From contig JAEVHO010000006.1 in NCBI GenBank assembly GCA_016802835.1, positions 1 to 35,709 on the forward strand: a DNA stretch of 35,709 bases, written 5' to 3'. Numbering within the stretch: position 1 is the first letter of the stretch; each line of letters begins with the position of its first letter. Origin of the DNA: Micromonospora sp. ATA32. Its GTDB lineage: Bacteria; Actinomycetota; Actinomycetes; Mycobacteriales; Micromonosporaceae. Shown here piece by piece: positions 8,865-34,809 of this stretch. Below the pieces are notes generated by a model, which saw only the letters and a program-made list of their open reading frames with translations, ran no database searches and had not been told where the DNA came from. A program made the position numbers and the translations under genes.

Positions 8865-9872
8865 TCAGGCCGACTCGCGCAGGACCAGTTCGGTGGGCAG
8901 CACCAGGGCCTGCTCCACGGTCTCCCCGGCGGCGATCCGCAGCAGCTGCCGGGTCATCTGCCGGCCGAGTTCGAGTATCGGCTGGCGGATGGTGGTCAGC
9001 GGCGGCTCGGTATAGGCGGCCGTCTCGATGTCGTCGAAGCCGATCACCGCGACGTCGTCCGGCACGCGCCGCCCGGCCTCGCGGAGCGCCCGCAGGGCGG
9101 CGTGCGCCATCAGGTCGGAGGCGGCGAAGACCGCGTCCAGGTCGGGGTGCTCGGCGAGCAGCTGACGCATCGCCGCCGCCCCGGACTCCCGGGTGAAGTC
9201 CCCGGTCGCCACCAGTTCCGGCAGCCCCGCCTCGGCCACCACGTCGCGGTAGCCCTCGAGCCGCTCGATGCCGGCGACCATGTCCTGCGGCCCGGAGATC
9301 GTGGCGATCCGGCGCCGGCCGCTGTCGATCAGGTGCCGAATGGCCCGGTGCACCCCGCCGACGTGGTCGACGTCGACGTACGGCACCTCCGCGCCGTCGA
9401 GCGGGCGACCGCTGCACACCACCGGGATGCCCAGCCGGGCCAGCCGGCCGGGCAGCGGGTCCTCGCCGTGCAGCGAGGCGAAGAGCACCCCGTCCACGTG
9501 CCGCCCGGTGGTGTACCGCTCCACCCGGTCGTGCCCGGCCGGCGAGCCCGCCAGCATCAGCACCAGCTGCTTGTCCGCCGCCTCCAACTCCTGGGCCGCC
9601 CCCCGGATGATCCCGGGGAAGACCTGGTCGTCGGAGAAGACCCGGGTCGCCGCCTCGGGCAGGACCAGCGCGACCGAGTCGGTCCGCTGGGTGACCAGGC
9701 TGCGGGCGGCCAGGTTCGGCACGTACCCCAGCTCCGCTACCGCCGCGCGGACCGCCTCCTGGATCGGGCCGGCGACGGTGGTGGAGCCGTTCACCACCCG
9801 GGACACGGTCGCCCGGGAGACCCCGGCCCGCCTGGCCACCTCTTCGAGCGTCGGCCGTTGCGCCGTCGTCAT
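8865..9872 (-). CDS. LacI-family repressor of the beta-glucoside operon (CebR-like)
   Basis: About 335 residues. The N-terminal LacI HTH and hinge are clear: [20 protein letters not shown] followed by [16 protein letters not shown] and [16 protein letters not shown]. The rest is a periplasmic-binding-protein-like effector domain ([52 protein letters not shown]). ATG 9872 is preferred because GGAGG lies five bases upstream; a GTG at 9884 is the alternative. It is the last gene of the operon, 19 bases after the GH1 gene. By analogy with Streptomyces CebR it should bind the two palindromes near 14560 and 14608 and be released by cellobiose or a similar disaccharide; the inducer is inferred. Confidence 0.9.
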
Positions 9873-9891
9873 CGCCGCCTCCACCAGATCG

Positions 9892-11275
9892 TCACAGCCC
9901 GTTGCGGGAGATCACCTCCTGGTACCAGCGGGCGCTCTCCTTCGGTGTGCGTCGCTGGGTCAGGTAGTCGACGTGCACGATCCCGAACCGCTTGCGGTAC
10001 CCCTCGGCCCACTCGAAGTTGTCCAGGAATGACCATACGAGATAGCCCCGCAGGTCCACGCCCCGGGCGATCGCCTCGTGCGCGGCCCGCAGGTGCCCGT
10101 CGAGGTAGGCGACCCGGTCGGTGTCGGACACCCACCCGGTGACGTCCGGGCCTTCGGTGCCGGTCTTGTCGGGGAACGCCGCCCCGTTCTCGGTGATCAG
10201 CATCGGCAGCCCCGGGTAGTCCGTGGCGATCCGCTCCAGCAGCCGGGTCAGCCCGGCCGCCTCGATCATCCAGCCCATGTCGGTCAGCGGCCCGACCGGC
10301 GGCAGGAACTCCACCGCCCCGTCGGTGCCCGGGTACGCGCCCCCCGCCCCCGGCCCCGTCGGCCGGCCCGCCACGTAGGTCGGCTGGTAGTAGTTGATGC
10401 CCAGCAGGTCGATCGGGGCGGCGATCACCTTCTCGTCCCCGTCCCGGATGAACGACGGCCGCACCATCCGGCTCACGTGCTCCAAGCACGTCGTCCGGGT
10501 AGCCGGCGCCGGTCAGCGGGTCGAGGAAGATCCGGTTCTGCAGCCCGTCGACCAGGCGTACCGCGGCGGCGTCGGCGGCGCTCTCCGGGTCCGCGGGGCG
10601 GACGTCGGCCGGGTTGAGGGTGATGCCGACGACCTCCGCGCCGGCCGAGCGCAGCGCCCGGGCCGCCAGGCCGTGCCCGAGCAGCAGATGGTGTACGGCG
10701 GTGAAGGCCGCCCCCGCGTCCTGCTCGCCGGGCGCGTGCACCCCGTTGCCGTACCCCAGGTAGGCCGAGCACCACGGCTCGTTGAGGGTGGTCCAGGTGC
10801 GGACCCGGTCGCCGAGCCGGGCGTACACCGCGGTGGCGTACGTGGCGAGGTGCTCGGCGGTCTCCCGGTTGGTCCAGCCGCCCCGGTCCTGCAACGTCTG
10901 CGGCAGGTCCCAGTGGTAGAGCGTGATGACCGGGTCGATGCCGCGGCGCAGCAGCTCGTCGACCAGGCGGTCGTAGAAGTCCAGCCCGCGCGGGTTGACC
11001 GGGCCGGTGCCGTCGGGCTGGATCCGCGGCCAGGCGACCGAGAAGCGGTACGCCTGAAGCCCCAGCTCCGCCATCAGGGCCACGTCGTCGGCGTACCGGT
11101 GGTAGTGGTCGCAGGCGACGTCGCCGGTGTGTCCCTGGTACACCTTCCCCGGCGTACGGCTGAAGGTGTCCCAGATGGACGGGCCGCGACCGTCGTCGCG
11201 GGCCGCGCCCTCGATCTGGTACGCCGCGGTGGCGGCGCCCCAGACGAAGTTCTCGGGAAATCGGAGATTGCTCAA
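9892..11275 (-). CDS. Family GH1 beta-glucosidase, frameshifted
   Basis: GH1 (BglB/BglC type), about 460 residues. The N-terminal signature [15 protein letters not shown] and acid/base motif TLNEPW are in the first frame; nucleophile motif LITENGAAF and the C-terminal [15 protein letters not shown] are in a second frame. A surplus base in CTTGGAGCAC (about 10484 on the plus strand) separates them; removing it gives [18 protein letters not shown]. Both catalytic glutamates are present. Start is TTG 11275, overlapping the TGA of the upstream permease (TTGA). It should hydrolyse imported cellobiose or aryl/alkyl beta-glucosides in the cytosol. No signal peptide is present, consistent with hydrolysis after uptake. 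Confidence 0.9.
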
Positions 11276-12105
11276 GCCTTGACCGCACCTTCCATGATCC
11301 CGCCGATGATCTGGCGGCCGAACAGGATGAAGACCAGCAGCAGCGGGAGCGTGGCGATGGCCGTTCCGGTGAACACCTGCGACATGTCCTGGTAGTAGCC
11401 GTCGGAGAGCGCCCGCAACGAGAGCTGCACCGTTGGATTCTCGGGGTCGTTGAGCACAGCGTACGGCCAGAGGAAATCGTTCCAGGTGGTCATGAAGGTG
11501 AGCAGCCCCAGCACGGCGGCGGCCGGGCGCAGCGCCGGCAGCACCACGTTCCAGTAGATCCGCGCGGTGCCGCAGCCGTCCATCCGGGCCGCCTCGATCA
11601 ACTCGGTGCTGACCGCCTGGCCGGCGTACTGCCGCATCATGAACACCCCGAACCCGGTGACCAGCGCCGGCACGATCACCGCCGGCAGCCGGTCGTTCCA
11701 GTTCAGTTTCGTCATCAGCAGGTACAACGGGATCACCCCGAGCTGGGTCGGCACCATCATCGTCGCGATGATCACCAGCAGCAGCGCGTTGCGCCCCCGG
11801 AACCGCAGCTTGGCGAAGGCGAACCCGGCCAGCGTGGAGAAGAAGACCACCGAGACCGTCACCGTTCCGGCCACGATCGCCGAGTTGATCAGACCGGTGA
11901 GGAAGTACGCGTCGGTGTTGTCGAAGAGCCGGGCGATGTTCGCGCCCAGATTCCCGCCCGGGGTGACCGGTGGGGGCACCTGCCCCATCGCGTCGCTGGA
12001 CCGGCTGGCCACCACGAACATCCAGTAGATCGGGAAGATCGACAGGAGGGCGGTGACCGCCAGCGCCGCGTAGGTGAGCCGGTTGGCGGACCAGAGCCGG
12101 CTCAC
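11272..12105 (-). CDS. Sugar ABC transporter permease, MalG/CebG-like
   Basis: 277 residues with about six membrane helices, starting at GTG 12105 ([20 protein letters not shown]). The ATPase-contact EAA loop is [20 protein letters not shown] with the following PALRP. The start codon overlaps the stop of the first permease (GTGA), and AAGGAGG lies just upstream, so translation is coupled. The stop overlaps the TTG start of the GH1 gene. It forms the membrane channel together with the preceding permease. No ATPase is encoded in this operon, so a shared MsiK-type ATPase elsewhere in the genome is expected, as in Streptomyces. Confidence 0.92.
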
Positions 12106-13091
12106 AGGACGTCCTCCTTGCCCGCCCCGCCGCCGAGCCGGCGGAGGATCAGCACGTTGATCGCCGCGACCACCGCGATCAGCGCGAAGAGCAGCCAGGC
12201 GACGGCCGAGCCGTAGCCGAAGTTGTAGTGCGGCGCGAAGGCGTTCTCGAACATGTACATGGTCACCGTCTGCGATTCGCGTAGCGGCCCGCCACGGATG
12301 GCGTTGGTGCCGGAGTGGAAGAGCCGGGGCTCGGTGAAGAGCTGGAGCCCACCGATGGTGGAGATGATGACGGCGAAGATGATCGTCGGCTTGAGCAGCG
12401 GGACGGTGATCGACCAGAACTGCCGGGACCGGTTGGCGCCGTCGATGGAGGCGGACTCGTACAGGTCGCGCGGGATGGCCTGCATGGCGGCCAGGAAGAT
12501 CAGCGCGTTGTAACCGGTCCACCGCCAGTCGACCATGGCCGAGATGGCCACCCAGGAGGCGACCCGGTTCGACTTCCAGTCGATCCCGCCGATCCCGACC
12601 ACGTCGAGCAGCCAGTTGACCATGCCGAACTCGCGGCCGAAGAGTACGGCGAAGACGATGGCCACGGCGGCGGTCGAGGTGACGTTGGGGATCAGCACGG
12701 CCATCCGCCAGGTGGTGCGCGCCCGGAGTTGGCGGTTGAGCAGGTTGGCCAGCCAGAGCGCGGCGAGCAGCTGCGGCACGGTGGAGATGACGAAGATGCC
12801 GAGGGTGTTGACGACCGCGTGCCAGAAGTCGGGATCGGCCATCAGCTGGGTGTAGTTCCGCGCGCCGACGAAGGGGTGGTCGGAGCCGAGCAGGTCCCAG
12901 TCGTGCAGCGACACCCAGAAGGTGTACGCCAGCGGGTAGACCCCGAAGACCCCGAAGAGCAGGAAGAACGGGGCGATGTAGAGGTAGGGCGAGTAGCGCG
13001 TGTCGAACCGGCTGAGCCGGACCCTCCCGGCATGCCGGCCGGTACGCGGCCCCGGCAGCACCGGCGGCCGGGCGTCGAGCTGAACAGCCAT
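12102..13091 (-). CDS. Sugar ABC transporter permease, MalF/CebF-like
   Basis: 329 residues. After a short cytosolic N-terminus ([20 protein letters not shown]) come helices such as [20 protein letters not shown] and [20 protein letters not shown]. The EAA loop is present as [20 protein letters not shown] followed by VPLLKP. ATG 13091 is supported by AAAGGAGGG eight bases upstream; the longer open frame to 13166 has no ribosome binding site. A strong stem-loop (13132-13181) separates it from the binding-protein gene, which probably sets the ratio of binding protein to membrane subunits. Confidence 0.92.
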
Positions 13092-13131
13092 CGGCCGTCC
13101 CTCCTTTCCGCTCCTCCCCGCTCCCGTCGAT

Positions 13132-13181
13132 CCAGGGCGTTTCGTCGCTGTTCGATCTCCGATCACAGCGATTCGCCCTGG
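13132..13181 (-). promoter_or_regulatory. Long stem-loop between binding-protein and permease genes
   Basis: CCAGGGCG (13132-13139) pairs with CGCCCTGG (13174-13181), and inside it TCGCTGT pairs with ACAGCGA around a 13-nt loop. Such a structure after the first gene of a sugar operon, as in malE-malF, usually stabilises the upstream mRNA or terminates part of the transcripts. Confidence 0.6.
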
Positions 13182-13203
13182 AGCGACGGGGAGTGCGGGA
13201 GGG

Positions 13204-14508
13204 CTACTTGGCGGCGGCCTTCTTGGCGTTCGTCACGGCGTCGGTCCAGCCCTGGGCGGGGTTGCGCTGACCCAGCTCCACCGTGCGGACGGCGTTCTCC
13301 ACCTCGGTGCGGACCGCCTGGTTCTTCGGGCCCATGTAGACCGGCTTCAGGCTCTTCGCCCCGGCGGCGAAGATCTTGCCGACCGGCGCTGCCGAGAAGT
13401 ACGGGTTCGTGGAGCTCGCGATCGCCGGGTCGTCGAGCGCCTGCGGCGACGACGGCAGCGGGCCCTTGGCCTTGAACGCGCCGATCTGACCCTTGGCGCT
13501 GGTCAGGAACTTCGCCAGCTCGATCGCCTCGGCCTGGTGCTTGCCCTGCTTCGGCACCGCCAGGTACGACCCGCCCCAGTTGCCGCCGTTGCCGGGCACC
13601 TGGGCGATGTCCCACTTGCCCTTGGCAGCCGGCCCGGCGTTGCCCTCGATGACGCCGGTCATCCAGGCCGGGCAGGCGATGGTGGCGAACTTGGCCTGCT
13701 TGAAGGCCGAGACCCACTCCTCGGACCAGGCGCCGTACTTGCCGGACAGGCCCGAGTCGATGATGTCCATCGTGGTGTCGTAGGCCTGGCGGACGGCCGG
13801 GTTGCTGTCGACCACCAGGTTGTCGCTGGTGTCGTAGTAGCTGTAGCCCTGCGCGTTGCCGGCGCTCTGCAGCAGGATGGTGTTGAAGGTGTTGGTCGCG
13901 GCATCCAGGAACGACGCCCCGGTGTTCGCCGCCTTGAACTTCTCACCGACCTTGACGTAGTCCTGCCAGGTCGGCCAGAGCTTCGACACGGCGTCCCGCT
14001 CGGTGGGGAGCCCGGCCTTGGCGAACAGGTCGGTGCGGTAGCAGATCGCCATGCCGCCGACATCGGTGCCGAGCCCGATCAGCTGCTTGCCGTCGGCGGT
14101 CATGCCGCCGTTCCACTTCCACTCGAGGAAGTTGCCCTTGAGGTCGGCGGCGCCGTGGTCGAGCAGGTTGACGAAGTTCTGCGGGTTGGCCTTGTACTCG
14201 ACCAGCAGCCCCTCCTCGATGGCGACCACGTCGCCCGCGCCCTTGCCGGCGGCGAGCCACTGGGTGAGCTTCGGCGAGTACTCGTCGAGGTTGCCGCCGG
14301 TGCCCCGCTCGACGATCTTCACGCCGGGGTGGCTGGCCATGTACTCCTGGTAGAGCTGTTCGTAGCCGAACTGGCCGAAGACGTCCACGGTCAGCGTGAC
14401 CGGGCCGTCCGCGGCGGGCTCGTCCCCGCCGCAGCCGGCGGTGGTGAGCAGTGCGGTGGCGGCGACAACGGCAACCGCCGCCATGCGGCGGCGCGCAAAA
14501 AGACCCAT
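13204..14508 (-). CDS. Sugar ABC transporter substrate-binding lipoprotein (CebE-like)
   Basis: 434 residues, family 1 extracellular solute-binding protein. The N-terminus has a positively charged segment (MGLFARRRM), a hydrophobic core and a lipobox LTTAGC with the lipidated cysteine at residue 26, so it is anchored outside the membrane. Typical regions include YRTDLFAKAGLP and the WxxWxx-type hydrophobic binding residues (AWSEEWVSAFKQAKFAT). It is the first gene of the operon. ATG 14508 has only a weak ribosome binding site. Substrate is inferred to be a beta-glucoside oligosaccharide from the linked GH1 enzyme and the CebR-type operators. Confidence 0.9.
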   Translation of the reverse strand: MGLFARRRMAAVAVVAATALLTTAGCGGDEPAADGPVTLTVDVFGQFGYEQLYQEYMASHPGVKIVERGTGGNLDEYSPKLTQWLAAGKGAGDVVAIEEGLLVEYKANPQNFVNLLDHGAADLKGNFLEWKWNGGMTADGKQLIGLGTDVGGMAICYRTDLFAKAGLPTERDAVSKLWPTWQDYVKVGEKFKAANTGASFLDAATNTFNTILLQSAGNAQGYSYYDTSDNLVVDSNPAVRQAYDTTMDIIDSGLSGKYGAWSEEWVSAFKQAKFATIACPAWMTGVIEGNAGPAAKGKWDIAQVPGNGGNWGGSYLAVPKQGKHQAEAIELAKFLTSAKGQIGAFKAKGPLPSSPQALDDPAIASSTNPYFSAAPVGKIFAAGAKSLKPVYMGPKNQAVRTEVENAVRTVELGQRNPAQGWTDAVTNAKKAAAK

Positions 14509-14552
14509 CTCTATTCGGACCTCTCAGGTCGTACGGGTGGTGGGGGGCGTGC

Positions 14553-14570
14553 TGAGAGAGCGCTCTCACG
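14553..14570. promoter_or_regulatory. LacI-type operator 1 of the sugar operon
   Basis: The 12-bp perfect palindrome GAGAGCGCTCTC (14556-14567) has the GAGCGCTC core of CebR/CelR boxes (TGGGAGCGCTCCCA). It lies at the predicted transcription start, between the -10 region and the binding-protein gene. Confidence 0.75.
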
Positions 14571-14572
14571 AA

Positions 14573-14601
14573 AGGGTGGGGGAGGTCACGGTCGATGTCA
14601 A
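14573..14601 (-). promoter_or_regulatory. Promoter of the sugar operon
   Basis: On the minus strand TTGACA (14601-14596) is followed after 17 bp by CACCCT (14578-14573), a weak -10. It is flanked by the two LacI-type palindromes, one against the -35 and one at the start site, which is a good layout for repression. Confidence 0.5.
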
Positions 14602-14616
14602 GAGAGCGCTCTCAGA
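14599..14616. promoter_or_regulatory. LacI-type operator 2 of the sugar operon
   Basis: A second copy of GAGAGCGCTCTC (14602-14613), 46 bp from the first, abuts the upstream edge of the -35 element. Confidence 0.75.
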
Positions 14617-14678
14617 CCGTTACCTGAGAGGCGGTCCGGTGATCCGGGCGCGGCGCGCTTTGGCGCGGTGGGGGTGCG

Positions 14679-15440
14679 TCAGCTGGTGCGGAGGCCGTCG
14701 AGCAGGGTGCGGTCGCCGGTCACGGCCAGGGTGTCGAAGCTGACCCGGCCCCACAGGGCGAGCTCCAGGTCGCTCGCGGTGGCGGCGACCTGCGCCCGGG
14801 CGTGGTGGTCGTCGTGGTCGAAGATGGTGGCGGTGTCGAGCAGGGCCACCCCCTGGCCGCGCAGTCGCAGGTACCACTCCTGGGCGGCGTCGGTGGCGGT
14901 GAGCTGCACGACCCCGTGCCACTGGCCGGGCGTCCGGCGCCGGCCCGCGGGCAGCCAGGTGTCCAGCACCTCGCTCACCCCGTCGGCGGCGAGCTTCGCC
15001 TCGACCGGCTCGCCGGCCGCGATGGCGAGTTGGGCGTCCCACCGGTGGATCGCGGTCTCGTGCGCCATCCGACGCGGCCAGAAGCCGGCCTTCTTCGGCT
15101 GCGGCGCCCAGTTCCACGCCGGGGCCTCCGGGTCGAGCCCGTCGAACAGGTTCATCAGCTGGTCGTACCCGTGCTGCCAGAGCTGGAGCGGGGTGGCGCC
15201 GGCGGGAAGGTCGACGTCCGCCGGGCGGCCCGTCGGCCGGGTGGTGGCGCCTGAGCCGGCGAACGAGTGCACCCAGTGGTAGATCCGGGCGAGGTGCAGG
15301 GTGAGATCGGCGACCGTCCAGCCAGGACAGGACAGCACCGGTGTCTCCGCCGGGGCCTCGGCGACGGCAGCGGCGAACGCCGGCCCCTCCATCCTGAGCG
15401 CGCCGATCCAGAAGTCCTTGGTGCCGTGCAGTCTGCTCAT
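14679..15440 (-). CDS. Mycothiol-dependent maleylpyruvate isomerase family protein
   Basis: 253 residues of the DinB/MDMPI_N fold. The N-terminal part (PGWTVADLTLHLARIYHWVH) and the metal-binding segment MAHETAIHRWDAQLA carry the three histidines expected of the family; a C-terminal MDMPI-like domain follows. Such proteins use or are related to enzymes that use mycothiol, the actinobacterial thiol, for detoxification or isomerisation. The true substrate is unknown. ATG 15440 is supported by GGAGG eight bases upstream. mshA, which starts mycothiol synthesis, is 3 kb away on the other strand but not in the same operon. Confidence 0.82.
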   Translation of the reverse strand: MSRLHGTKDFWIGALRMEGPAFAAAVAEAPAETPVLSCPGWTVADLTLHLARIYHWVHSFAGSGATTRPTGRPADVDLPAGATPLQLWQHGYDQLMNLFDGLDPEAPAWNWAPQPKKAGFWPRRMAHETAIHRWDAQLAIAAGEPVEAKLAADGVSEVLDTWLPAGRRRTPGQWHGVVQLTATDAAQEWYLRLRGQGVALLDTATIFDHDDHHARAQVAATASDLELALWGRVSFDTLAVTGDRTLLDGLRTS

Positions 15441-15495
15441 CGCGATCCTCCAGGGCGACCGGGCCACCAGTGGGTGCCGCGGCTTCCCCTCAGCC

Positions 15496-15501
15496 TAGGG
15501 T
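15496..15501 (+). promoter_or_regulatory. -10 element TAGGGT, leaderless murB
   Basis: TAGGGT ends 7 nt before GTG 15509 and no Shine-Dalgarno sequence is present. Confidence 0.5.
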
Positions 15502-15508
15502 GAAAGGC

Positions 15509-16600
15509 GTGTCAGACGTTAGTGCCCAACCGACAACCGAAGCCGATCCCGCCGACCCGACCACGTTGGCGAGGTACACCACTCTGCGCCTCGGTGGCCC
15601 GGCGGGCCGGCTCGAAACCGCTGCCAGCGCCGAAGAGATCGTACAAAAGGTGCAGGCAGCGCAGCGACGGGACGAGCCGGTCCTCATCCTCGCAGGGGGC
15701 AGCAACGTCGTGATCGGCGACGCCGGCTTCCCCGGCACGGTCGTCCTGGTCCGCTCGCGCGGGCTCACGGTGGTCGCCGAGGACGCCGGGACGGTCACCG
15801 TACGGGTCGAGGCGGGGGAGCCCTGGGACGACCTGGTCGCCACCACCGTCGCCAGCGGTTGGTCCGGGCTGGAGTGCCTCTCCGGCGTCCCCGGCTCCAC
15901 CGGAGCGACCCCGATCCAGAACGTCGGCGCGTACGGCCAGGAGGTCGCCGAGACCATCACCGGCGTCCAGGTGTACGACCGCAGCGACGGCAGCGTGGGC
16001 CGGATCGACGCCGCCGACTGCGGGTTCGCCTACCGGGGCAGCATCTTCAAGTACAGCGACCGCTGGGTGGTGCTCTCGGTCGACTTCCGGCTCGAACGTT
16101 CGCCGATCTCCGGCCCGGTCCGCTACGCCGAGCTGGCCCGCGCGCTCGGGGTCGAGGTCGGTGACCGGGTGCCGCTCGCCGACGCCCGCGCCACGGTGCT
16201 GCGGCTGCGCGCCGGCAAGGGCATGGTGCTCGACGCGGCCGACCCGGACACCTGGTCGGTGGGCTCGTTCTTCACCAACCCCGTGCTGGAACGGTCGGCG
16301 TACGAGCTGCTCCGGGAGCGTGCCGCGGACCTGGGTGAGCCGCCGTCCTGGTTCGGCGCCGGCGATGTGGTCAAGGTCAGCGCCGCCTGGCTGATCGACA
16401 AGGCCGGCTTCGCCAAGGGCCACCCGGGCCCGGAGGGAGTGGCGATCTCCAGCAAGCACACCCTCGCCCTGACCAACCGCTGCGGGGACGCCAGCACCGC
16501 CGCCCTGGTCGAACTGGCCCGGGAGATCCGCGACGCCGTCCACGACCGCTTCGGCGTGACCCTCCACCCCGAGCCCGTCCTCATCAACTGCACCATCTGA
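15509..16600 (+). CDS. murB: UDP-N-acetylenolpyruvoylglucosamine reductase
   Basis: 363 residues. MurB reduces enolpyruvyl-UDP-GlcNAc to UDP-MurNAc with NADPH and FAD in the cytosolic stage of peptidoglycan synthesis. FAD-binding motif ILAGGSNVVIGD is near residues 60-71; GVPGSTGATPIQNVGAYGQE and CGFAYRGSIFK are conserved substrate/FAD regions; the catalytic serine is in VGSFFTNP; the glutamate is in HPEPVLIN at the C-terminus. The presence of the YRGS loop indicates type I MurB. GTG 15509 (MSDVSAQPTT) fits a leaderless promoter. The open frame continues a little upstream without support. It is divergent from the MDMPI-type gene. Confidence 0.95.
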   Translation: MSDVSAQPTTEADPADPTTLARYTTLRLGGPAGRLETAASAEEIVQKVQAAQRRDEPVLILAGGSNVVIGDAGFPGTVVLVRSRGLTVVAEDAGTVTVRVEAGEPWDDLVATTVASGWSGLECLSGVPGSTGATPIQNVGAYGQEVAETITGVQVYDRSDGSVGRIDAADCGFAYRGSIFKYSDRWVVLSVDFRLERSPISGPVRYAELARALGVEVGDRVPLADARATVLRLRAGKGMVLDAADPDTWSVGSFFTNPVLERSAYELLRERAADLGEPPSWFGAGDVVKVSAAWLIDKAGFAKGHPGPEGVAISSKHTLALTNRCGDASTAALVELAREIRDAVHDRFGVTLHPEPVLINCTI

Positions 16601-16624
16601 CCCCCCGCGATCTGACCGCCGGCC

Positions 16625-16691
16625 GATCTTGCACTTCCTGCCCGGGCAAAGCTCTTGAACGCCGCGGAATCAGGGCCCGAGGTGCACGATC
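16625..16691. repeat. Imperfect inverted-repeat intergenic element
   Basis: GATCTTGCACTTC (16625-16637) and GAGGTGCACGATC (16679-16691) are inverted copies with two mismatches, enclosing about 40 bp. It lies between the convergent murB and methyltransferase genes. It could be a REP/MITE-like dispersed repeat or a bidirectional terminator. Confidence 0.45.
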
Positions 16692-16737
16692 GCCGAGGGG
16701 TCCCATTAGGGGTGGGGGTTGGCGGGCCAGGCGATGG

Positions 16738-17495
16738 TCAGTTCGCCCAGGCGCCAGCGGCGGGGCGGTCGAGGATGGGCCAGCCGGCCTCCCGCAGCGC
16801 GGTGACGGCTCGCCAGCCAGCGCTGCCGGGGGCCGAACGGGGCGTACGCCGGCGGGCGGCCCGCCAGGCGTCGTCGAGGGCCCGGATCAGGTCGTGCACC
16901 GGCTCGCCGGGGACGTTGCGGTGGATCAGGGCCTTGGGCAGGCGCTCGGCGAGCTCGGCGGGGCGGTCCAGGGTGGTGAGCTTCGCGGCCAGGGTCAGCG
17001 AGCGCGGACCGTCGGCATCGATCAGCAGCCAACCGCCGAGCCGGCCCAGCTCATCGCAGGTGCCCTCGACGAGCAGGCCGCCCGGGGCCAGCGCGCTGGT
17101 CATCGTCCGCCAGGCGTCGGCGACCTCGCTCTCGTCGTACTGTCGCAGCACGTTGAAGGCGCGGACCAGGGCGGGGCGCAGCCCGGCCAGCTCGAAGCCG
17201 CCCCGGGCGAAGGTCAGCCCGGGCGGGTCGGCGGCGGGCGCGGCGGCGGCGACGCGTACCGGATCGACCTCCAGCCCGACCACCCGGACGTCGGCGCGGA
17301 CCCGGGCGCGAGCCGGGCGCGCAGCTCGACGGCTGTGACCGGGGTGGCGCCGTAGCCGAGGTCGACCACCAGCGGATCCGCCGCCGCGCGCAGCCGGTCG
17401 CCGCAGGTCTCGACGATCCAGTTGTCCACCCGGCGGAGCCGGTTGGGGTTGGTCGTCCCCCGGGTGACCACCCCCGACGGACGCCGCTGGGCCAT
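16738..17495 (-). CDS. Class I SAM-dependent methyltransferase, frameshifted
   Basis: Starts at ATG 17495 (MAQRRPSGVVTRGTTNPNRL). Motif I is PLVVDLGYGATP and the next strand, VVGLEVDPVRV, lies in a shifted frame; one base near 17303-17311 joins them. Then ALVRAFNVLRQYDESEVADA and LAPGGLLVEGTCDELGRL follow, giving about 252 residues in total. The Rossmann-fold motifs support a methyltransferase, but the target (small molecule, rRNA or protein) cannot be told. It is downstream of an SDR gene on the same strand with a 58-base gap, so the two may be co-transcribed. Confidence 0.75.
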
Positions 17496-22567: not shown

Positions 22568-25500
22568 TCATACCCGGCGGACCGAGACCGTCACCCGGTC
22601 GCCCTCGCCGACCTCACCGGTGAACCCCTCGATCCCGTCGCCGAAGTCGACGGTGTCGGCCAGCACCTCGCGCGCGACGAAGTCGGTGAACGCCGACACC
22701 GCGGCGCGGACCTCCTCGGACGCGGAGACCATCAGCACGATCCGGTCCGAGACGTCCAGGTCGGCGTCCCGGCGGGCCTGCTGGACCACCCGGACCACGT
22801 CCCGGGCCAGCCCCTCGGCGGCCAGCTCCGGGGTGACCTGGGTGTCCAGCACGACCACGCCCTCGCCGCCGGGCAGCGGCGCGGAGTTCTCCGCGTCGGC
22901 GGCGACGAGGCGCAGCTCGTACTCGCCCTCGGCGAGGGTGACCCCGGCGGCGACCGGGGCGCCCTCGACCAGCTCCCAGTCCCCCGCCTTGACCGCCTTG
23001 ATCACCTGCTGCACCTGCTTGCCGACCCGCGGGCCGAGCGCCCGGGGCACCACGGTCAGCACCTGCTGGCAGTACGCGGACACGTCGTCGGTGAACTCCA
23101 CCGCCTTCACGTTGACCTCGTCGGCGACCAGGTCGGCGAACGGACGCAGCTCGGCCGCCAGCGGCGAGGCCACGATCAGCCGGGGCAGCGGCAGCCGGAC
23201 CCGCAGGCCCTTCGCCTTGCGCAGCGACAGCGCCGCCGAGCAGACGTCCCTGGTGGCGTCCATCGCGGCCACCAGCTCGTGGTCGGCCGGGAAGTCCTGC
23301 GCCGACGGCCAGTCGGTCAGGTGCACCGACCGCTCGCCGGTGAGCCCGCGCCAGATCTCCTCGGCGGTCAGCGGCGCCAGCGGCGCCACCACCCGGCAGA
23401 GCGTCTCCAGCACCGTCCACAGCGTGTCGAACGCCTCGACGTCGCCCGACCAGAACCGGTCCCGGACGGCGCACGTACCAGTTGGTCAGCGCGTCCAGGA
23501 AGGACCGGACGGTGGCGCAGGCGCCGGAGATGTCGTACGCCTCCATCTGCCCCTGGACCGTCTCGACCAGCTCCCGCGTCTTGGCCAGCACGTACCGGTC
23601 CAGCAGGCTGCCGGCGGCGGCCGCGCCGGCGGTCGGCTCAGCGTCCACCTTCCGCTTGGCCACGTAGCCGTCGGCGTTGGCGTAGAGCGAGAAGAAGTAC
23701 CAGACGTTCCACAGCGGCAGCAGCACCTGCCGGACGGCGTCCCGGATGCCCGGCTCGGTGACCGCCATGTCCCCACCGCGCAGCACCGGCGAGGACATCA
23801 GCATCCAGCGCATCGCGTCCGAGCGTACGCATCGAAGACGTGGTAGACGTCCGGGTAGTTGCGCAGGCTCTTGGACATCTTGCGCCCGTCCGAGCCGAGC
23901 AGGATGCCGTGGCTCAGGCAGTTGCGGAACGCCGGCCGGTCGAACAGCGCGGTGGCCAGCACGTGCATGGTGTAGAACCAGCCGCGGGTCTGCCCGATGT
24001 ACTCGACGATGAAGTCGCCCGGGTAGTGGTGCTCGAACCAGTCACGGTTCTCGAACGGGTAGTGCACCTGGGCGAACGGCATCGAGCCGGACTCGAACCA
24101 GCAGTCCAGCACCTCCGGCACCCGGCGCATCATCGACTTCCCCGTCGGGTCGTCCGGGTTGGGACGGACCAGCTCGTCCACCGCCGGCCGGTGCAGGTCG
24201 GTCAGGCGTACGCCGAAGTCCCGCTCGATGTCCGCCAGCGAGCCGTAGACGTCGAGGCGCGGGTAGTTCGGGTCGTCGGACTTCCACGCCGGGATCGGCG
24301 AGCCCCAGAACCGGTTCCGGCTGATCGACCAGTCCCGGGCGTTGGCCAGCCACTTGCCGAACGAGCCGTCCTTGATGTGCCCCGGCGTCCAGTTGATCTG
24401 CTGGTTCAGCTCGACCATCCGGTCCTTGAAGCGCGTCACCGCGACGAACCAGGACGACACCGCCTTGTAGACCAGCGGGGTGTCGCAGCGCCAGCAGTGC
24501 GGGTAGGAGTGGGTGTAGGTGTCCTGCCGCAGCACCACCCCCCGCTCCTTGAGCTCCCGGATCACCGGCTTGTTGACGTCGAAGACCTGCTCGCCCTCGT
24601 ACGGCGGGACCAGCGCGGTGAACCGGGTGCGGTCGTCCACCGTGACGATGGTCGGGATGCCGGCCGCGTTGCAGACGTTCTGGTCGTCCTCACCGAAGGC
24701 CGGGGCCAGGTGGACGATCCCGGTGCCGTCCTCGGTGGTGACGAAGTCGGCGCCGAGCACCTGGTAGGCGTTCTCGCCGGCCTGATCGACCAGGAAGTCG
24801 TAGAGCGGGGTGTAGCGCCGCCCGACCAGGTCGGCGCCGCGCACCGTGCCGACCTGCTCGAACCCCTCCAGCTCCTTGGCGTACGCCCCGAGCCGGGCCG
24901 CGCCGACCAGGTGCCGCTGCCCGTCGCGCTCCAGCACCGCGTACTCGATGTCCGGGCCGACGGCGAGCGCCAGGTTGGACGGCAGGGTCCACGGCGTGGT
25001 GGTCCAGACGCCGAGCCGGACCGGGCCGCGCACCAGCTCGGGGGCGGACTCGTCGGCGGTCAGCCCGAACCACACGGTCAGCGTCGGGTCGTGCCGGTCC
25101 CGGTAGACGTCGTCCATCCGGGTCTCGGTGTTCGACAGCGGCGTCTCGCAGCGCCAGCAGTACGCCAGCACCCGGAAGCCCTCGTAGACCAGACCCTTGT
25201 CGTGCAGGGTCTTGAAGGCCCACATGACGCTTTCCATGTAGTCCAGATCAAGGGTCTTGTAGTCGTCGGTGAAGTCGACCCAGCGGGCCTGCCGGGTGAC
25301 GTACCGCTCCCAGTCCTGGGTGAACTCCAGCACCGAGGTACGGCAGGCCTCGTTGAACCGGGCCACGCCGAGGTCGAGGATCTCGGCCTTGCTGGTGATG
25401 CCGAGCTGCTTCTCGGCGACCACCTCGGCGGGCAGGCCGTGGCAGTCCCAGCCGAAGCGCCGCTCGACGTGCCGCCCGCGCATGGTCTGGTAGCGCGGCA

Positions 25501-25738
25501 CCACGTCCTTGACGTACCCGGTGAAGAGGTGGCCGTAGTGCGGCAGGCCGTTGGCGAACGGCGGACCGTCGTAGAAGACGTACTCGTTCTTGCCGTCCTC
25601 GCCGGTCGACCGGGCCTCGACGCTGGCCTCGAAGGTCTTGTCGGCCGTCCAGTGCTCCAGGACCCGGCGCTCGACCGCGGGCAGGTCCGGGCTCGCCGGG
25701 ACACCGGCGGCGGTCGGGTCGTGCAACGGATAGGCCAT
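22568..25738 (-). CDS. ileS: Isoleucyl-tRNA synthetase, two frameshifts
   Basis: Charges tRNA-Ile with isoleucine. ATG 25738 ([20 protein letters not shown]). The class I HIGH motif appears as HYGH (residues 67-70), and KMSKS is at about 620-624 in [10 protein letters not shown]. The inserted CP1 editing domain lies between them. Total length is about 1057 residues, and HYGH with this length fits the eukaryote-like (type 2) IleRS found in actinobacteria. The frame breaks twice: one G/C missing at about 23824 (expected [13 protein letters not shown]) and two bases missing at about 23463-23471 (expected NWYVRRSRDRFW). An essential enzyme with two breaks strongly suggests sequence errors. It is controlled by a T-box leader. 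Confidence 0.95.
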
Positions 25739-25740
25739 CG

Positions 25741-25975
25741 GGGGTCGCTCTCCTCGCGCAGCTCACGGTCAGTGGGTCTGCGAGGACGAGCGTCTCCGGG
25801 TACGCCTCTCGGCCCGCCCGGGTGGCCCGCGGTACCACCCCGCTTGGCGGTCAGGATCGACCGCCCGCTCGTTGGCCGGCTGTGACGGGCCGGACCCGTC
25901 CGGTTCTACTGGGCCGGTTGCCCGGCTGTTCTTCCGGAGGCTCGCCGGTGATGGCCGGGTCGGCGCCTGTATGCC
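25741..25975 (-). promoter_or_regulatory. Translational T-box riboswitch of ileS
   Basis: The leader contains the diagnostic T-box sequence TGGTACCGCGG (25837-25827 on the minus strand), which pairs with the free CCA end of uncharged tRNA. A specifier ATC (Ile) is at 25952-25950 in CCGGCCATCACCGGCG. A stem II/S-turn-like AGTAGAACCG follows. There is no terminator before the gene; instead TCCTCGC (25786-25780) can pair with GCGAGGA (25757-25751), covering the GAGGAG ribosome binding site. The order matches the mycobacterial and Nocardia ileS T-boxes that act on translation. Uncharged tRNA-Ile should expose the ribosome binding site and increase IleRS synthesis. Confidence 0.92.
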
Positions 25976-25979
25976 GTCA

Positions 25980-25985
25980 AGCGTA
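25980..25985 (-). promoter_or_regulatory. -10 element TACGCT of the ileS leader
   Basis: On the minus strand TACGCT lies just upstream of the predicted 5' end of the T-box transcript (about 25973). The -35 is not clear. Confidence 0.4.
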
Positions 25986-26139
25986 CTCGACCCGGTACGG
26001 GGACCGCCGCCGAGTAATCCCACGGCGTGATCCGGATCGAGCTGGACGAACCCTGGCCCGTACCCGGATCGCGATCAGCCGGTGACCATGTCGGCCTGAG
26101 ATTCGGCCGGAACGGAATTCGTTTCCCCGCCCGCCGTGC
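25986..26139. other. Region between ileS promoter and ABC remnant
   Basis: A GTG at 26027 opens a short frame VIRIELDEPWPVPGSRSAGD that could be the damaged N-terminus of the following ATPase (family members often begin MIRI...), but it is out of frame with the Walker A segment. No other feature is seen. Confidence 0.3.
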
Positions 26140-26532
26140 GAGCTGTTCGGCCTGCTCGGCCCGAACGGCGCTGGCAAGACCACCACCATCAAGCTGCTGA
26201 ACACGCTGCTCATCCCGACCGCCGGCACCGCCCGGATCGCCGGCTTCGACGTGGTCACCCAGACCCGGGAGGTCCGCCGGCGGATCGGCTACGTCTTCGG
26301 CGGTGACCGGGGCCTGTACGACCAGCTCACCGCCCGGGACAACCTGCGCTACTTCGCCGAGCTGTACGGCGTGCCGGGTCGCGAGCAGCGGCGGCGGATC
26401 GCCGAGATGCTCGACCTGGTCCGGCTGGGCCGGGTCACCGCCCGGCAGCCGACCCTCGAGGACGCGTACGTGGCGATCGTGAACCGGGTCGCCGCGCAGC
26501 GGGAGCGGCCGGTCGGGGCGGTGGCCGCGTGA
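26140..26532 (+). pseudogene. ABC exporter ATPase (DrrA-like), internally deleted
   Basis: From 26140 the frame reads ELFGLLGPNGAGKTTTIKLL, a perfect Walker A, then the Q-loop region and YDQLTARDNLRYFAELYGVP as in daunorubicin/ABC-2 exporters. After EMLDLVRLG it jumps directly to RVTARQPTLEDAYVAIVNRV, the extreme C-terminus of the family. The ABC signature (about SGGxxQR), Walker B, D-loop and H-loop, roughly 150 residues, are missing, but the frame is kept. No proper N-terminus is present either. The protein could not hydrolyse ATP. Its stop overlaps the GTG of the permease remnant (GTGA), the normal operon arrangement. Confidence 0.8.
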
Positions 26533-27014
26533 GGACGCTGCGGCTCGTCGACGCCGGCAACGGCCTGCTGATCGCGGTCAGCACGCTGACCATCGGCTCG
26601 CTGCTGCTCGGGCTGCGGGTGCCGGTGGGCGCCCTGCCCGGACTGCTGCTGACCCTGGCGGTCGCCTCGCTGGCCTGCGGGTTCTTCGGGTTGACCCTGG
26701 GCGCCATCGGGCTGCGCTTCCGGGACGTCTGGCTGATCTCCAACGTCTCGGTGGCGCTGCTGCTCCTGCTCACCGGGGCGAACGTCCCCGCCGCCGGGCT
26801 GCCGGCCGGGATGCGGGCGGTGGGCCAGGCGTTGCCGATCACCCACGCCGCCGAGGCGGCCCGCCGGCTGGCCGGGGGCCAGGGCTTCGCCGCCGCGGTC
26901 CCCGCACTCGCCGCCGAGGCGGCGGTCGGCCTCGGGTACGCCGTGCTGGCCGCCGCCCTGCTCAAGCTCTTCGAAGCCGAGAGCCGCCGCCACGCCTCCC
27001 TCGACACGCTCTGA
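26529..27014 (+). pseudogene. ABC-2 type exporter permease, N-terminal half deleted
   Basis: GTG 26529 gives MRTLRLV, like the first residues of ABC-2 permeases, then the sequence continues with DAGNGLLIAVSTLTIGSLLL and further helices TLAVASLACGFFGLTLGAIG and VWLISNVSVALLLLLTGANV, ending with LKLFEAESRRHASLDTL. The family has about six helices and 260-290 residues; 161 remain. The first two helices and the loop seem to be missing. As with the ATPase, the deletion is in frame. Two independent in-frame deletions in neighbouring genes are odd. A hairpin terminator follows. Confidence 0.72.
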
Positions 27015-32183: not shown

Positions 32184-34797
32184 GAGGGCAGTGCCTCCAG
32201 GGCAGCGTTGATCCGGGTCAGGTCAGCTTCGGCCACGGCGAGCCGGTCGCGGATCTTGGCGACCACCGGCTCGGGGGCCTTCCCGACGAAGGCCGGGTTG
32301 TCGAGCTTCGCCCGGGCCTGCGCGGCCTCCTTCTCGGCCGCCGCGCGGTCCTTGGTCAGCCGGGCCCGCTCCGCGGCCAGGTCGATCGAGCCGCGGGTGT
32401 CGAGCGCCACGTCGATCGGGCCGGGCATGGCCAGCGTGGCACTGGCCTGGAAGTCGTCACCGGCCGGGTCGAGCCGGACCAGCGAGCGGATCAGCGGCTC
32501 GTGGGCCGTGATGCCGGCCCGCCCAGTCCGTCCAGCCGTGCGGCGACCCGTTGGGTCGGGCGCAGCCCCTGGTCGGAACGGAACCGACGGATCTCGGTCA
32601 CCACCCGCTGGACGGTGCCCACCTCCGCCTCGGCGGCGTCGTCGACCAACGTACGGTCGGCGACCGGCCAGGCCGCGGTCATCACCGTCTCCCCGCCGGT
32701 GAGCGCGATCCAGAGCTCCTCGGTGACGAACGGGATCACCGGGTGCAGCAGCCGCAGCAGCTGGTCGAGCACGTGCCCGAGCACCCGGCGGGTCACCTCG
32801 GCCGCCACGCCGCCCTCGGCGAGCACCGGCTTGGTCAGCTCGACGTACCAGTCGCAGACGTCGTCCCAGGCGAAGTGGTACAGCAGGTCGCAGACCTTGG
32901 CGAACTCGTACGCCTCGAACTGCTTGTCCACCTCGGCGGCGACGTGCTGGAGCCGGGACAGGATCCACCGGTCGACGGTCGACAGCCGGTCGGCCGCCGG
33001 CAGCGGACCCTCGGTGTGCGCGCCGTTCATCAGCGCGAACCGGGTGGCGTTCCAGAGCTTGTTGCAGAAGTTGCGGGAGCCCTGGCACCACTCCTCACTG
33101 ACCGGGACGTCCTGGCCGGGGTTGGCGCCCCGGGCCAGGGTGAACCGGGTGGCGTCCGCGCCGAAGCGGTCGATCCAGTCCAGCGGGTCGACCACGTTGC
33201 CGAACGACTTGGACATCTTCTTGCCGTGCTCGTCCCGGACCATGCCGTGCAGCGCGACCACCTCGAACGGCGGGGTGCCGTCCATCGCGTACAGGCCGAA
33301 CATCATCATCCGGGCGACCCAGAAGAACAGGATGTCGTAGCCGGTGACCAGCACGCTGGTCGGGTAGAACTTGGCCAGGTCCGGGGTCTGCTCCGGCCAG
33401 CCGAGCGTCGAGAACGGCCACAGGCCGCTGGAGAACCAGGTGTCCAGGACGTCCTCGTCCTGCCGCCAGCCCTCGCCGGTGGGTGGCTGCTCGTCGGGTC
33501 CGACGCAGACGATCTCCCCGTCGGGGCCGTACCAGACCGGAATCCGGTGACCCCACCAGAGCTGCCGTGAGATGCACCAGTCGTGCATGTTGTCGACCCA
33601 GGCGAAGTAGCGCTTGGCCAGCTCGGCCGGCTCGATCCGCACCCGGCCGTCCCGCACCGCGTCACCGGCCGCCTGGGCCAGCGGCGCGGTGTTGACGAAC
33701 CACTGCAGCGACAGCCGCGGCTCGATCGTCGTCCTGCACCGGGAGCAGTGCCCCACCGCGTGCACGTACGGCCGCTTCTCGGCGACGATCAGCCCCTGCT
33801 CGCGCAGTGCCGCCACGATCGCCGGCCGGGACTCGAACCGGTCGAGCCCCTGGAACGGGCCGTGCGCGGTGATCAAGCCCCGCTCGTCCATGATCGTGAG
33901 CGACGGCAGGCCGTGCCGCTGGCCGATCTCGAAGTCGTTCGGGTCGTGCGCCGGGGTCACCTTGACCATGCCGGTGCCGAAGCTCGGGTCGACGTGCTCG
34001 TCGGCGACGATCGGGATGCGGCGGTCGGTCAGCGGCACGGCGACGTCGGTGCCGATCAGGTGCCGGTAGCGCTCGTCGTCCGGGTGCACGGCGACGGCGG
34101 TGTCACCGAGCATCGTCTCGGCCCGGGTGGTGGCCACCACGACGTCGTCGCTGTAGCGGATGGAGATCAGCTCACCGTCGTCGTCGGTGTGCTCCACCTC
34201 GATGTCGGACAGCGCGGTGAGGCAGCGCGGACACCAGTTGATGATGCGCTCGGCGCGGTAGATCAGGCCGTCGTCGAAGAGCTTCTTGAACATCGTCTGG
34301 ACGGCCCGGGACAGGCCCGCGTCCATCGTGAAACGCTCCCGGTCCCAGTCGACGCCGTCACCCAGGCGGCGCATCTGGCCGAGGATGGCGCCGCCGGACT
34401 CGGCCTTCCACCGCCAGACCCGCTCGATGAACTTCTCCCGGCCAAGGTCGTGCCGGGACAGGCCCTCGGTGGCGAGCTGCCGCTCGACCAGGTTCTGGGT
34501 GGCGATGCCGGCGTGGTCCATGCCGGGCAGCCAGAGCGCCTCGAACCCCTGCATCCGCTTACGCCGGGTGAGCGCGTCCATCAGGGTGTGCTCGAACGCG
34601 TGGCCCATGTGCAGCGAACCGGTGACGTTCGGCGGCGGGATGACGATGGCGAACGGGGGCTTGTCGCTCCGCGCCGACGCCCGGAAGTGGCCGGCGGCTA
34701 CCCACTGCTCGTACCGTCGCTGCTCTACCTCGCCCGGCTGGTACTGGGCAGGCAGGTTCGGGGCGTCGGGGCGTCGGGCATCCAGTCTCTCGGTCAC
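32180..34797 (-). CDS. valS: Valyl-tRNA synthetase, frameshift in the C-terminal arm
   Basis: Charges tRNA-Val with valine and edits threonine. GTG 34797 ([20 protein letters not shown]). The HIGH motif is HMGH (63-66) in [14 protein letters not shown]; the editing domain has [25 protein letters not shown] is at 527-531 in [10 protein letters not shown]; the zinc-type pairs CPRC and CSRC are present. The frame breaks after [11 protein letters not shown] where one G is missing (plus strand 32517-32520), and the remaining C-terminal coiled-coil arm ([20 protein letters not shown]) runs to TGA at 32180. About 872 residues when repaired. Start follows TAGACT with a 6-nt gap, so leaderless. Confidence 0.95.
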
Positions 34798-34803
34798 CCT
34801 GAA

Positions 34804-34809
34804 AGTCTA
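34804..34809 (-). promoter_or_regulatory. -10 element TAGACT, leaderless valS
   Basis: On the minus strand TAGACT ends 6 nt before GTG 34797. No T-box or long leader is present before valS, in contrast to ileS. Confidence 0.5.

Follow-up and report, generated by a model that had tools for sequence, protein, structure and literature searches.

An isoleucine T-box leader, very probably of the translational class, upstream of ileS in Micromonospora sp. ATA32

The leader of ileS, the gene for the isoleucyl-tRNA synthetase (IleRS), in Micromonospora sp. ATA32 raises the question whether it is a T-box riboswitch and, if so, whether it acts on translation or on transcription. A first-pass annotation of the 35,709-nucleotide stretch analysed here (in the following, the window) had placed a compact actinobacterial T-box of the translational type in front of this gene. 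Our analysis bears this out: we consider it very probable that the leader is an ordinary class II (translational) isoleucine T-box riboswitch. The class assignment is based on the sequence, the conserved anatomy, covariation, a cognate tRNA in the genome and the predicted masking of the ribosome-binding site in the folded leader (Table 1), while the binding of tRNA, the sensing of its charging and the direction of regulation would correspond to what is described for homologues.

Table 1 Features of the ileS locus and the two further T-boxes of the genome.
Feature	Position	Strand	Remarks
-10 candidate TACGCT	25980..25985	minus	based on TAnnnT spacing across leaders; transcript start inferred near 25972
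ileS T-box leader	25972-25739	minus	start inferred, at about 234 nt upstream of ileS
Ultrashort Stem I, CCGG-CCAUCA-CCGG	25945..25958	minus	no unpaired cells across 34 leaders
AUC specifier (Ile), followed by purine A	25950..25952	minus	inside the six-base apical loop
Stem II, purine-rich putative S-turn, GCAA loop	25899..25938	minus	AAGAA 25933-25929 opposite AGUAGAA 25910-25904
Stem IIA/B pseudoknot	25876..25898	minus	both-side changes in 3/4 pairs; 86.3% of cells paired
Stem III	25846..25865	minus	both-side changes in 6/7 pairs; 88.1% of cells paired
Antisequestrator	25780..25843	minus	helix A1 25843-25838/25785-25780; helix A2 25830-25825/25791-25786
T-box bulge UGGUACC	25831..25837	minus	UGGU complements the ACCA end of uncharged tRNA-Ile
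T-box motif TGGTACCGCGG	25837-25827	minus	exact
Sequestrator hairpin	25747..25791	minus	25791-25780 with 25757-25747; predicted fold
Shine-Dalgarno GAGGAG	25750..25755	minus	from sequence
ileS	22614..25738	minus	ATG at 25738; split over frames in the draft; low end approximate (end of second listed ORF)
Second ileS T-box, AUC	G000:C9:21272-21444 (L125; gene in L093)	minus	model R1 149 bits
T-box with TGGCACCGCG before aspartate--tRNA(Asn) ligase	G000:C464:2535-2684 (L127, L132)	plus	model R1 47.7 bits

Position and detection of the ileS leader

The leader is flanked by ileS and by a divergent ABC-transporter-like frame with an apparent start near 26130 (read from the sequence), and an ABC2 membrane domain comes after this start, at 26529-27014. 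The first piece of ileS matched TIGR00392 with 668 bits, and the nearest named protein relatives of the IleRS among the best 80 loci belong to Micromonospora. In 21 of 22 leaders a TAnnnT element starts 24-28 nt ahead of the CCGG of Stem I (shuffled sequences: mean 2.6, maximum 8 of 22). From this near-constant distance, transcription is expected to start near 25972. In the sole leader without the element (L018), the contig edge (near position 8) is occupied by what looks like an adapter in place of the promoter region; we take this sequence to resemble a transposon-library adapter.

The invariant T-box motif noted in the first-pass annotation is present as an exact match, on the minus strand, which the annotation had left unstated. 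As evidence on its own this 11-mer was discarded, since its frequency is close to chance: with up to one mismatch it occurred twice in the window (1.48 matches expected), and exact matches in the genome numbered 11 versus 5 for the reversed pattern. Together with the missing Rfam call described below, this would fit a chance T-box-like match in GC-rich DNA. The position directly before ileS and the recurrence of the element upstream of 45 of the best 80 ileS loci speak against such an origin. It is refuted by covariation and by a covariance model built independently of the window's leader (R2), and we regard its probability as negligible.

Two covariance models were used. Model R1 was built from 34 leaders including the window's own and matched the window leader with 138.7 bits (E 4e-35), a score to which the leader itself contributes. 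Model R2 comprised 19 leaders, none of them from Micromonospora by title and one (Actinorhabdospora) from the same family, and still gave 137 bits (E 1e-28), with all other matches in the window at E 0.48 or worse. Relatives had been gathered with the first 160 residues of the IleRS, and the best 80 loci were taken. TGGNACCGCG was found at most 450 nt upstream in 45 of these loci; R1 recovered the same 45, 32 of which had helped to build it. Among the 35 loci lacking TGGNACCGCG, 23 are named as Acidimicrobiia-type or other phyla and two as Actinomadura, and in four the sequence available upstream is limited to 4 to 317 nt. Since L047, a carrier, bears the title Acidimicrobiaceae, the taxonomic split of carriers is imperfect.

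At gathering thresholds (93 bits for RF00230) Rfam returned no match for the leader. In a focused search of 501 bases, RF00230 reached 20.5 bits (E 0.018) and aligned with the 3' domain (model positions 156-216), leaving the 5' half of the leader unmatched. The check with this model that the first-pass annotation had proposed therefore came out formally negative, yet it is uninformative, since 19 of the 45 element-bearing relatives were scored in the same way and all stay below the cut-off (eight have E below 0.05). Four ileS-leader loci also fell under it. As these relatives miss the cut-off too, the gathering score was dropped as the deciding measure, and the leader is a T-box by its anatomy while lying outside RF00230 membership. 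According to PMC7778990, TBDB uses a separate model for T-boxes of the translational class, which agrees with RF00230 missing the ileS leaders. The leader-derived covariance model shows that the Rfam T-box cut-off misses this class.

Conserved anatomy and the predicted switch

The leader combines the features of class II T-boxes, namely a cognate specifier with its tRNA, a UGGN bulge facing NCCA, the anatomy of Stems I, II, IIA/B and III, and two mutually exclusive hairpins. The ATC specifier claimed in the first-pass annotation is presented in the apical loop of Stem I, and all 47 of 47 leaders retain AUC-A (a pattern search showed it in 45, visual inspection in L047 and L064). In L064, Stem I shows a compensatory change to GAGG/CCUC instead of CCGG/CCGG. 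The same genome carries a tRNA-Ile(GAU) on contig C5, the anticodon of which matches the AUC specifier. It was found with a third search pattern; the first gave 0 matches here and the second 3 matches in 21 genomes, none of them in Micromonospora sp. ATA32. In this tRNA (L131) the discriminator A is followed by CCG, so that CCA is not genome-encoded, and the UGGU of the bulge fits ACCA.

Covariation was assessed in two alignments. The narrower one (A1) comprised 19 leaders, consisting of the window and Micromonosporaceae-like loci within L009-L029 (19 of 21 extracted leaders were used; L010 and L013 were omitted). Here, 95.4% of cells were paired. Changes on both sides occurred in 11 pairs, whereas shuffled alignments gave 6.2 and reached this value once in 500. 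The wider one (A2), which is also the source of model R1, comprised 34 of 47 leaders from a wider range of organisms; 94.0% of its cells were paired and 24 pairs changed on both sides versus a shuffled mean of 13.2 (0 of 500 as high), and pairing fell to at most 49.2% when the partners were slid. At least one pair changed on both sides in each of eight helices of this alignment, the IIA/B pseudoknot and Stem I included, and in the upper helix of Stem II all five pairs did so. Antisequestrator cells were paired to 99.0% in helix A1 and 95.0% in helix A2 over the 34 leaders, and one pair of helix A1 was found as G-C, A-U and G-U.

In Paractinoplanes, the IIA/B pseudoknot region is reduced in one leader (L023) and nearly missing in another (L025), with the remaining T-box present.

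T-boxes of this kind have been known since 2005, as PMC1262725 indicates, and the window leader is a routine, clean instance. The actinobacterial ileS leaders described there share the gene, the T-box sequence, a hairpin over the Shine-Dalgarno sequence and the lack of a terminator. Compared by description we see no difference of substance, and Micromonospora is absent from the text of that paper. For the ileS T-boxes of Nocardia farcinica and Mycobacterium tuberculosis, complexes with tRNA have been solved (6UFM and 6UFG; PMC7583486). By the description given there, the window leader resembles them in its short Stem I, the apical specifier followed by A, the Stem II S-turn, the IIA/B pseudoknot and the discriminator domain; the S-turn itself is assigned by this likeness and is thus a putative one. 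The loop of antisequestrator helix A2 is long in the window (39 nt from the T-box motif to CGTCC), which we list as a difference from the 6UFM and 6UFG systems.

The expression platform is predicted to hide the ribosome-binding site. The arm 25791-25780 is shared by antisequestrator and sequestrator, which makes the two hairpins mutually exclusive. Folded without constraints, the 3' domain is predicted to adopt the sequestrator, with 9 of its 11 pairs at a probability above 0.8, and the core Shine-Dalgarno bases are almost never unpaired in it, in agreement with the hairpin over GAGGAG that had been claimed from the sequence. When either fold was forced on the 3' domain, the energies were -53.0 kcal/mol for the sequestrator and -39.5 kcal/mol for the antisequestrator; this unaided gap of 13.5 kcal/mol takes no account of tRNA, of the S-turn or of Mg2+, and a reversible switch would be expected to show a smaller one. 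The leader as a whole is only moderately more stable than shuffled sequences (z -2.35; 6 of 200 as low).

The sequestrator arms were also swapped between leaders. In 27 of 47 leaders, chosen by hand, the native combinations had a mean of -15.3 compared to -15.0 for the best of 1000 permutations. A repeat with 31 leaders, i.e. all extracted leaders ending in ATG or GTG (16 were dropped), gave a native mean of -15.04 and a best permutation of -14.54. Relatedness among the leaders can inflate this permutation test. The support for the sequestrator is pooled over leaders; in the window leader itself the native arms have no advantage over swapped ones (18 of 26 exchanges were equal or better). Across the leaders no covariation was seen in the proximal sequestrator helix, as is to be expected since both of its strands are pinned by other functions.

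On the minus strand we found no terminator-like site and no run of U longer than one base, which upholds the earlier statement that a terminator is lacking. An intrinsic terminator competing with an antiterminator, by which class I (transcriptional) T-boxes are recognised, is thus not seen here. A T-box could nevertheless act mainly on transcription, for instance through Rho-dependent termination if ileS stays untranslated, as ribosomes would be barred from the ileS message by the sequestrator. Another mycobacterial leader reportedly combines a translational platform with Rho-dependent termination, going by the title of PMC12810186. The missing intrinsic-terminator-like site and U run and the direct pairing of the ribosome-binding site in the predicted fold argue against such a main mode of action, which we consider unlikely.

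Under the favoured translational mechanism, the apical AUC of Stem I would pair with the tRNA-Ile anticodon, GAU, and the S-turn of Stem II would brace the codon-anticodon duplex. The free ACCA end of an uncharged tRNA would pair with UGGU; the antisequestrator would then form and engage its 3' arm, leaving GAGGAG accessible to the ribosome. With a charged tRNA, the antisequestrator would not be held, the same arm would pair with GAGGAG and translation of ileS would stay low. The switch hence probably uncovers the ileS ribosome-binding site as isoleucine-free tRNA accumulates, a mechanism described for homologues in PMC1262725 and PMC7583486.

valS and the frame breaks in the draft assembly

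The first-pass annotation had further contrasted ileS with the valS gene of the window, which was said to have no leader and to be controlled by the opposite strategy. The first part held as far as T-boxes are concerned, as neither R1 nor R2 found one before valS; for opposite strategies there is no support, since a valS gene without a T-box is no evidence for an opposite strategy. valS is encoded on the minus strand from a GTG at 34797 and comprises class I synthetase and anticodon domains. TAGACT lies six bases ahead of this GTG (34797-34809), a spacing from which the valS message may be leaderless. The contrast is overdrawn; more remarkable in this genome is that a second ileS gene has its own T-box.

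The ileS gene changes frame twice (23798-23823 and near 23465), resulting in three profile pieces. These pieces and the existence of an alternative ileS might indicate that ileS became a pseudogene after the second copy took over and that the leader is a decayed relic. Every element of the leader is intact, which speaks against this, and valS, which changes frame once (32491-33091) and falls into two frames, is split too, as is the second ileS. Since three synthetase genes are broken alike in a draft of 891 contigs, the breaks most likely represent assembly indels, which would explain all three. The pseudogene reading was dropped in favour of these indels, and we regard a relic as very unlikely.

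Two further T-boxes in the same genome

A search of the whole assembly with R1 revealed three T-boxes, before the ileS of the window, before the second ileS on contig C9 and before a gene on contig C464. The latter was detected with 46.5 bits by R2, and the downstream enzyme is an aspartate--tRNA(Asn) ligase (PRK05159, 532 bits), which we take to be of the archaeal type. Close relatives of this enzyme are present in 28 of 41 family genomes, and TGG[CT]ACCGCG occurs shortly upstream of all 28 (21 with C, 7 with T); it is absent upstream of two more distant loci. With E values up to 1 allowed, R1 matched 27 of the 28 aspartyl leaders, and 19 of them had E below 0.001. A GAAGAC motif is present in 21 of the 28 and missing in 7, and its GAC (Asp) is the likely specifier. 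By eye, Stem I of the T-box on C464 is longer. In the part of PMC2494555 consulted, a T-box-regulated aspS is named only in Clostridium.

The leader on C9 scored 149 bits with R1, the alignment of which contained it, and 136.8 bits with R2, from which it was absent. The enzyme encoded downstream differs from that of the window in its motif, GTHH versus HYGH. In IleRS2, GXHH gives mupirocin hyper-resistance, according to PMC10485003. The second ileS has an open frame of 877 aa, with the C-terminal DUF5915 piece in a separate ORF, while most second-type copies in the family genomes compared exceed 1030 aa. A close copy of this gene is found in 40 of 150 family genomes (59-100% identity), and in 4 of the 40 carriers it is the only match listed. 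Among 30 second-type loci examined, GXHH was present in all and a T-box (E below 1e-8) in 17, with none in the other 13; on visual inspection, all 17 have AUC within the match or immediately ahead of it. The best 80 loci of the housekeeping type have HxGH in 78 cases and HYGA in one, and in one the motif was not found. In the C9 leader we found no clear sequestrator: its arm pairing of -13.0 kcal/mol is weaker than the mean of -15.0, and, by eye, a further hairpin separates the antisequestrator arm from an SD-like AGGGAG situated well to its 3' side.

In several second-type leaders (L104, L110, L113, L120, L124 and others) AUC is present and the four-pair Stem I is altered. Upstream of it lies a stretch like CCGGGG-N2-GGTGGAAGCCCGG, which suggests a longer Stem I variant.

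About 3 kb from the second ileS are YcaO/SagD- and SagB-like genes (G000:C9 about 9120-17150, L162), a cluster of the azole-peptide type. Self-resistance of an antibiotic cluster was considered as a role for the second ileS and set aside as weak, with YcaO within about 10 kb on the same contig in only 2 of 30 second-type genomes (G000 and G055). The closest relative (G143) gave no YcaO match at all.

The two isoleucine T-boxes, which would read the same tRNA-Ile and precede two IleRS genes, tentatively point to a circuit of effect-induced resistance, in which poisoning of the HYGH enzyme could induce the GTHH enzyme; we rate this as possible and rather less than even. The idea is not wholly new, since a figure legend in PMC2494555 names a 'mupirocin resistant tRNA ligase' among the T-box-regulated families. 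Within the open-access literature on T-boxes together with mupirocin or Streptomyces we found no actinobacterial report, and the searched text of PMC12452182 does not address the question. If the circuit exists, resistance would be switched on by the effect of the drug, i.e. the rise in uncharged tRNA-Ile, and not by the drug itself. The window leader is thus an entry point to two less routine T-boxes, those of a GXHH ileS and of an aspartyl-tRNA synthetase gene, and the T-box before the GXHH ileS makes resistance induced by the effect of a drug testable.
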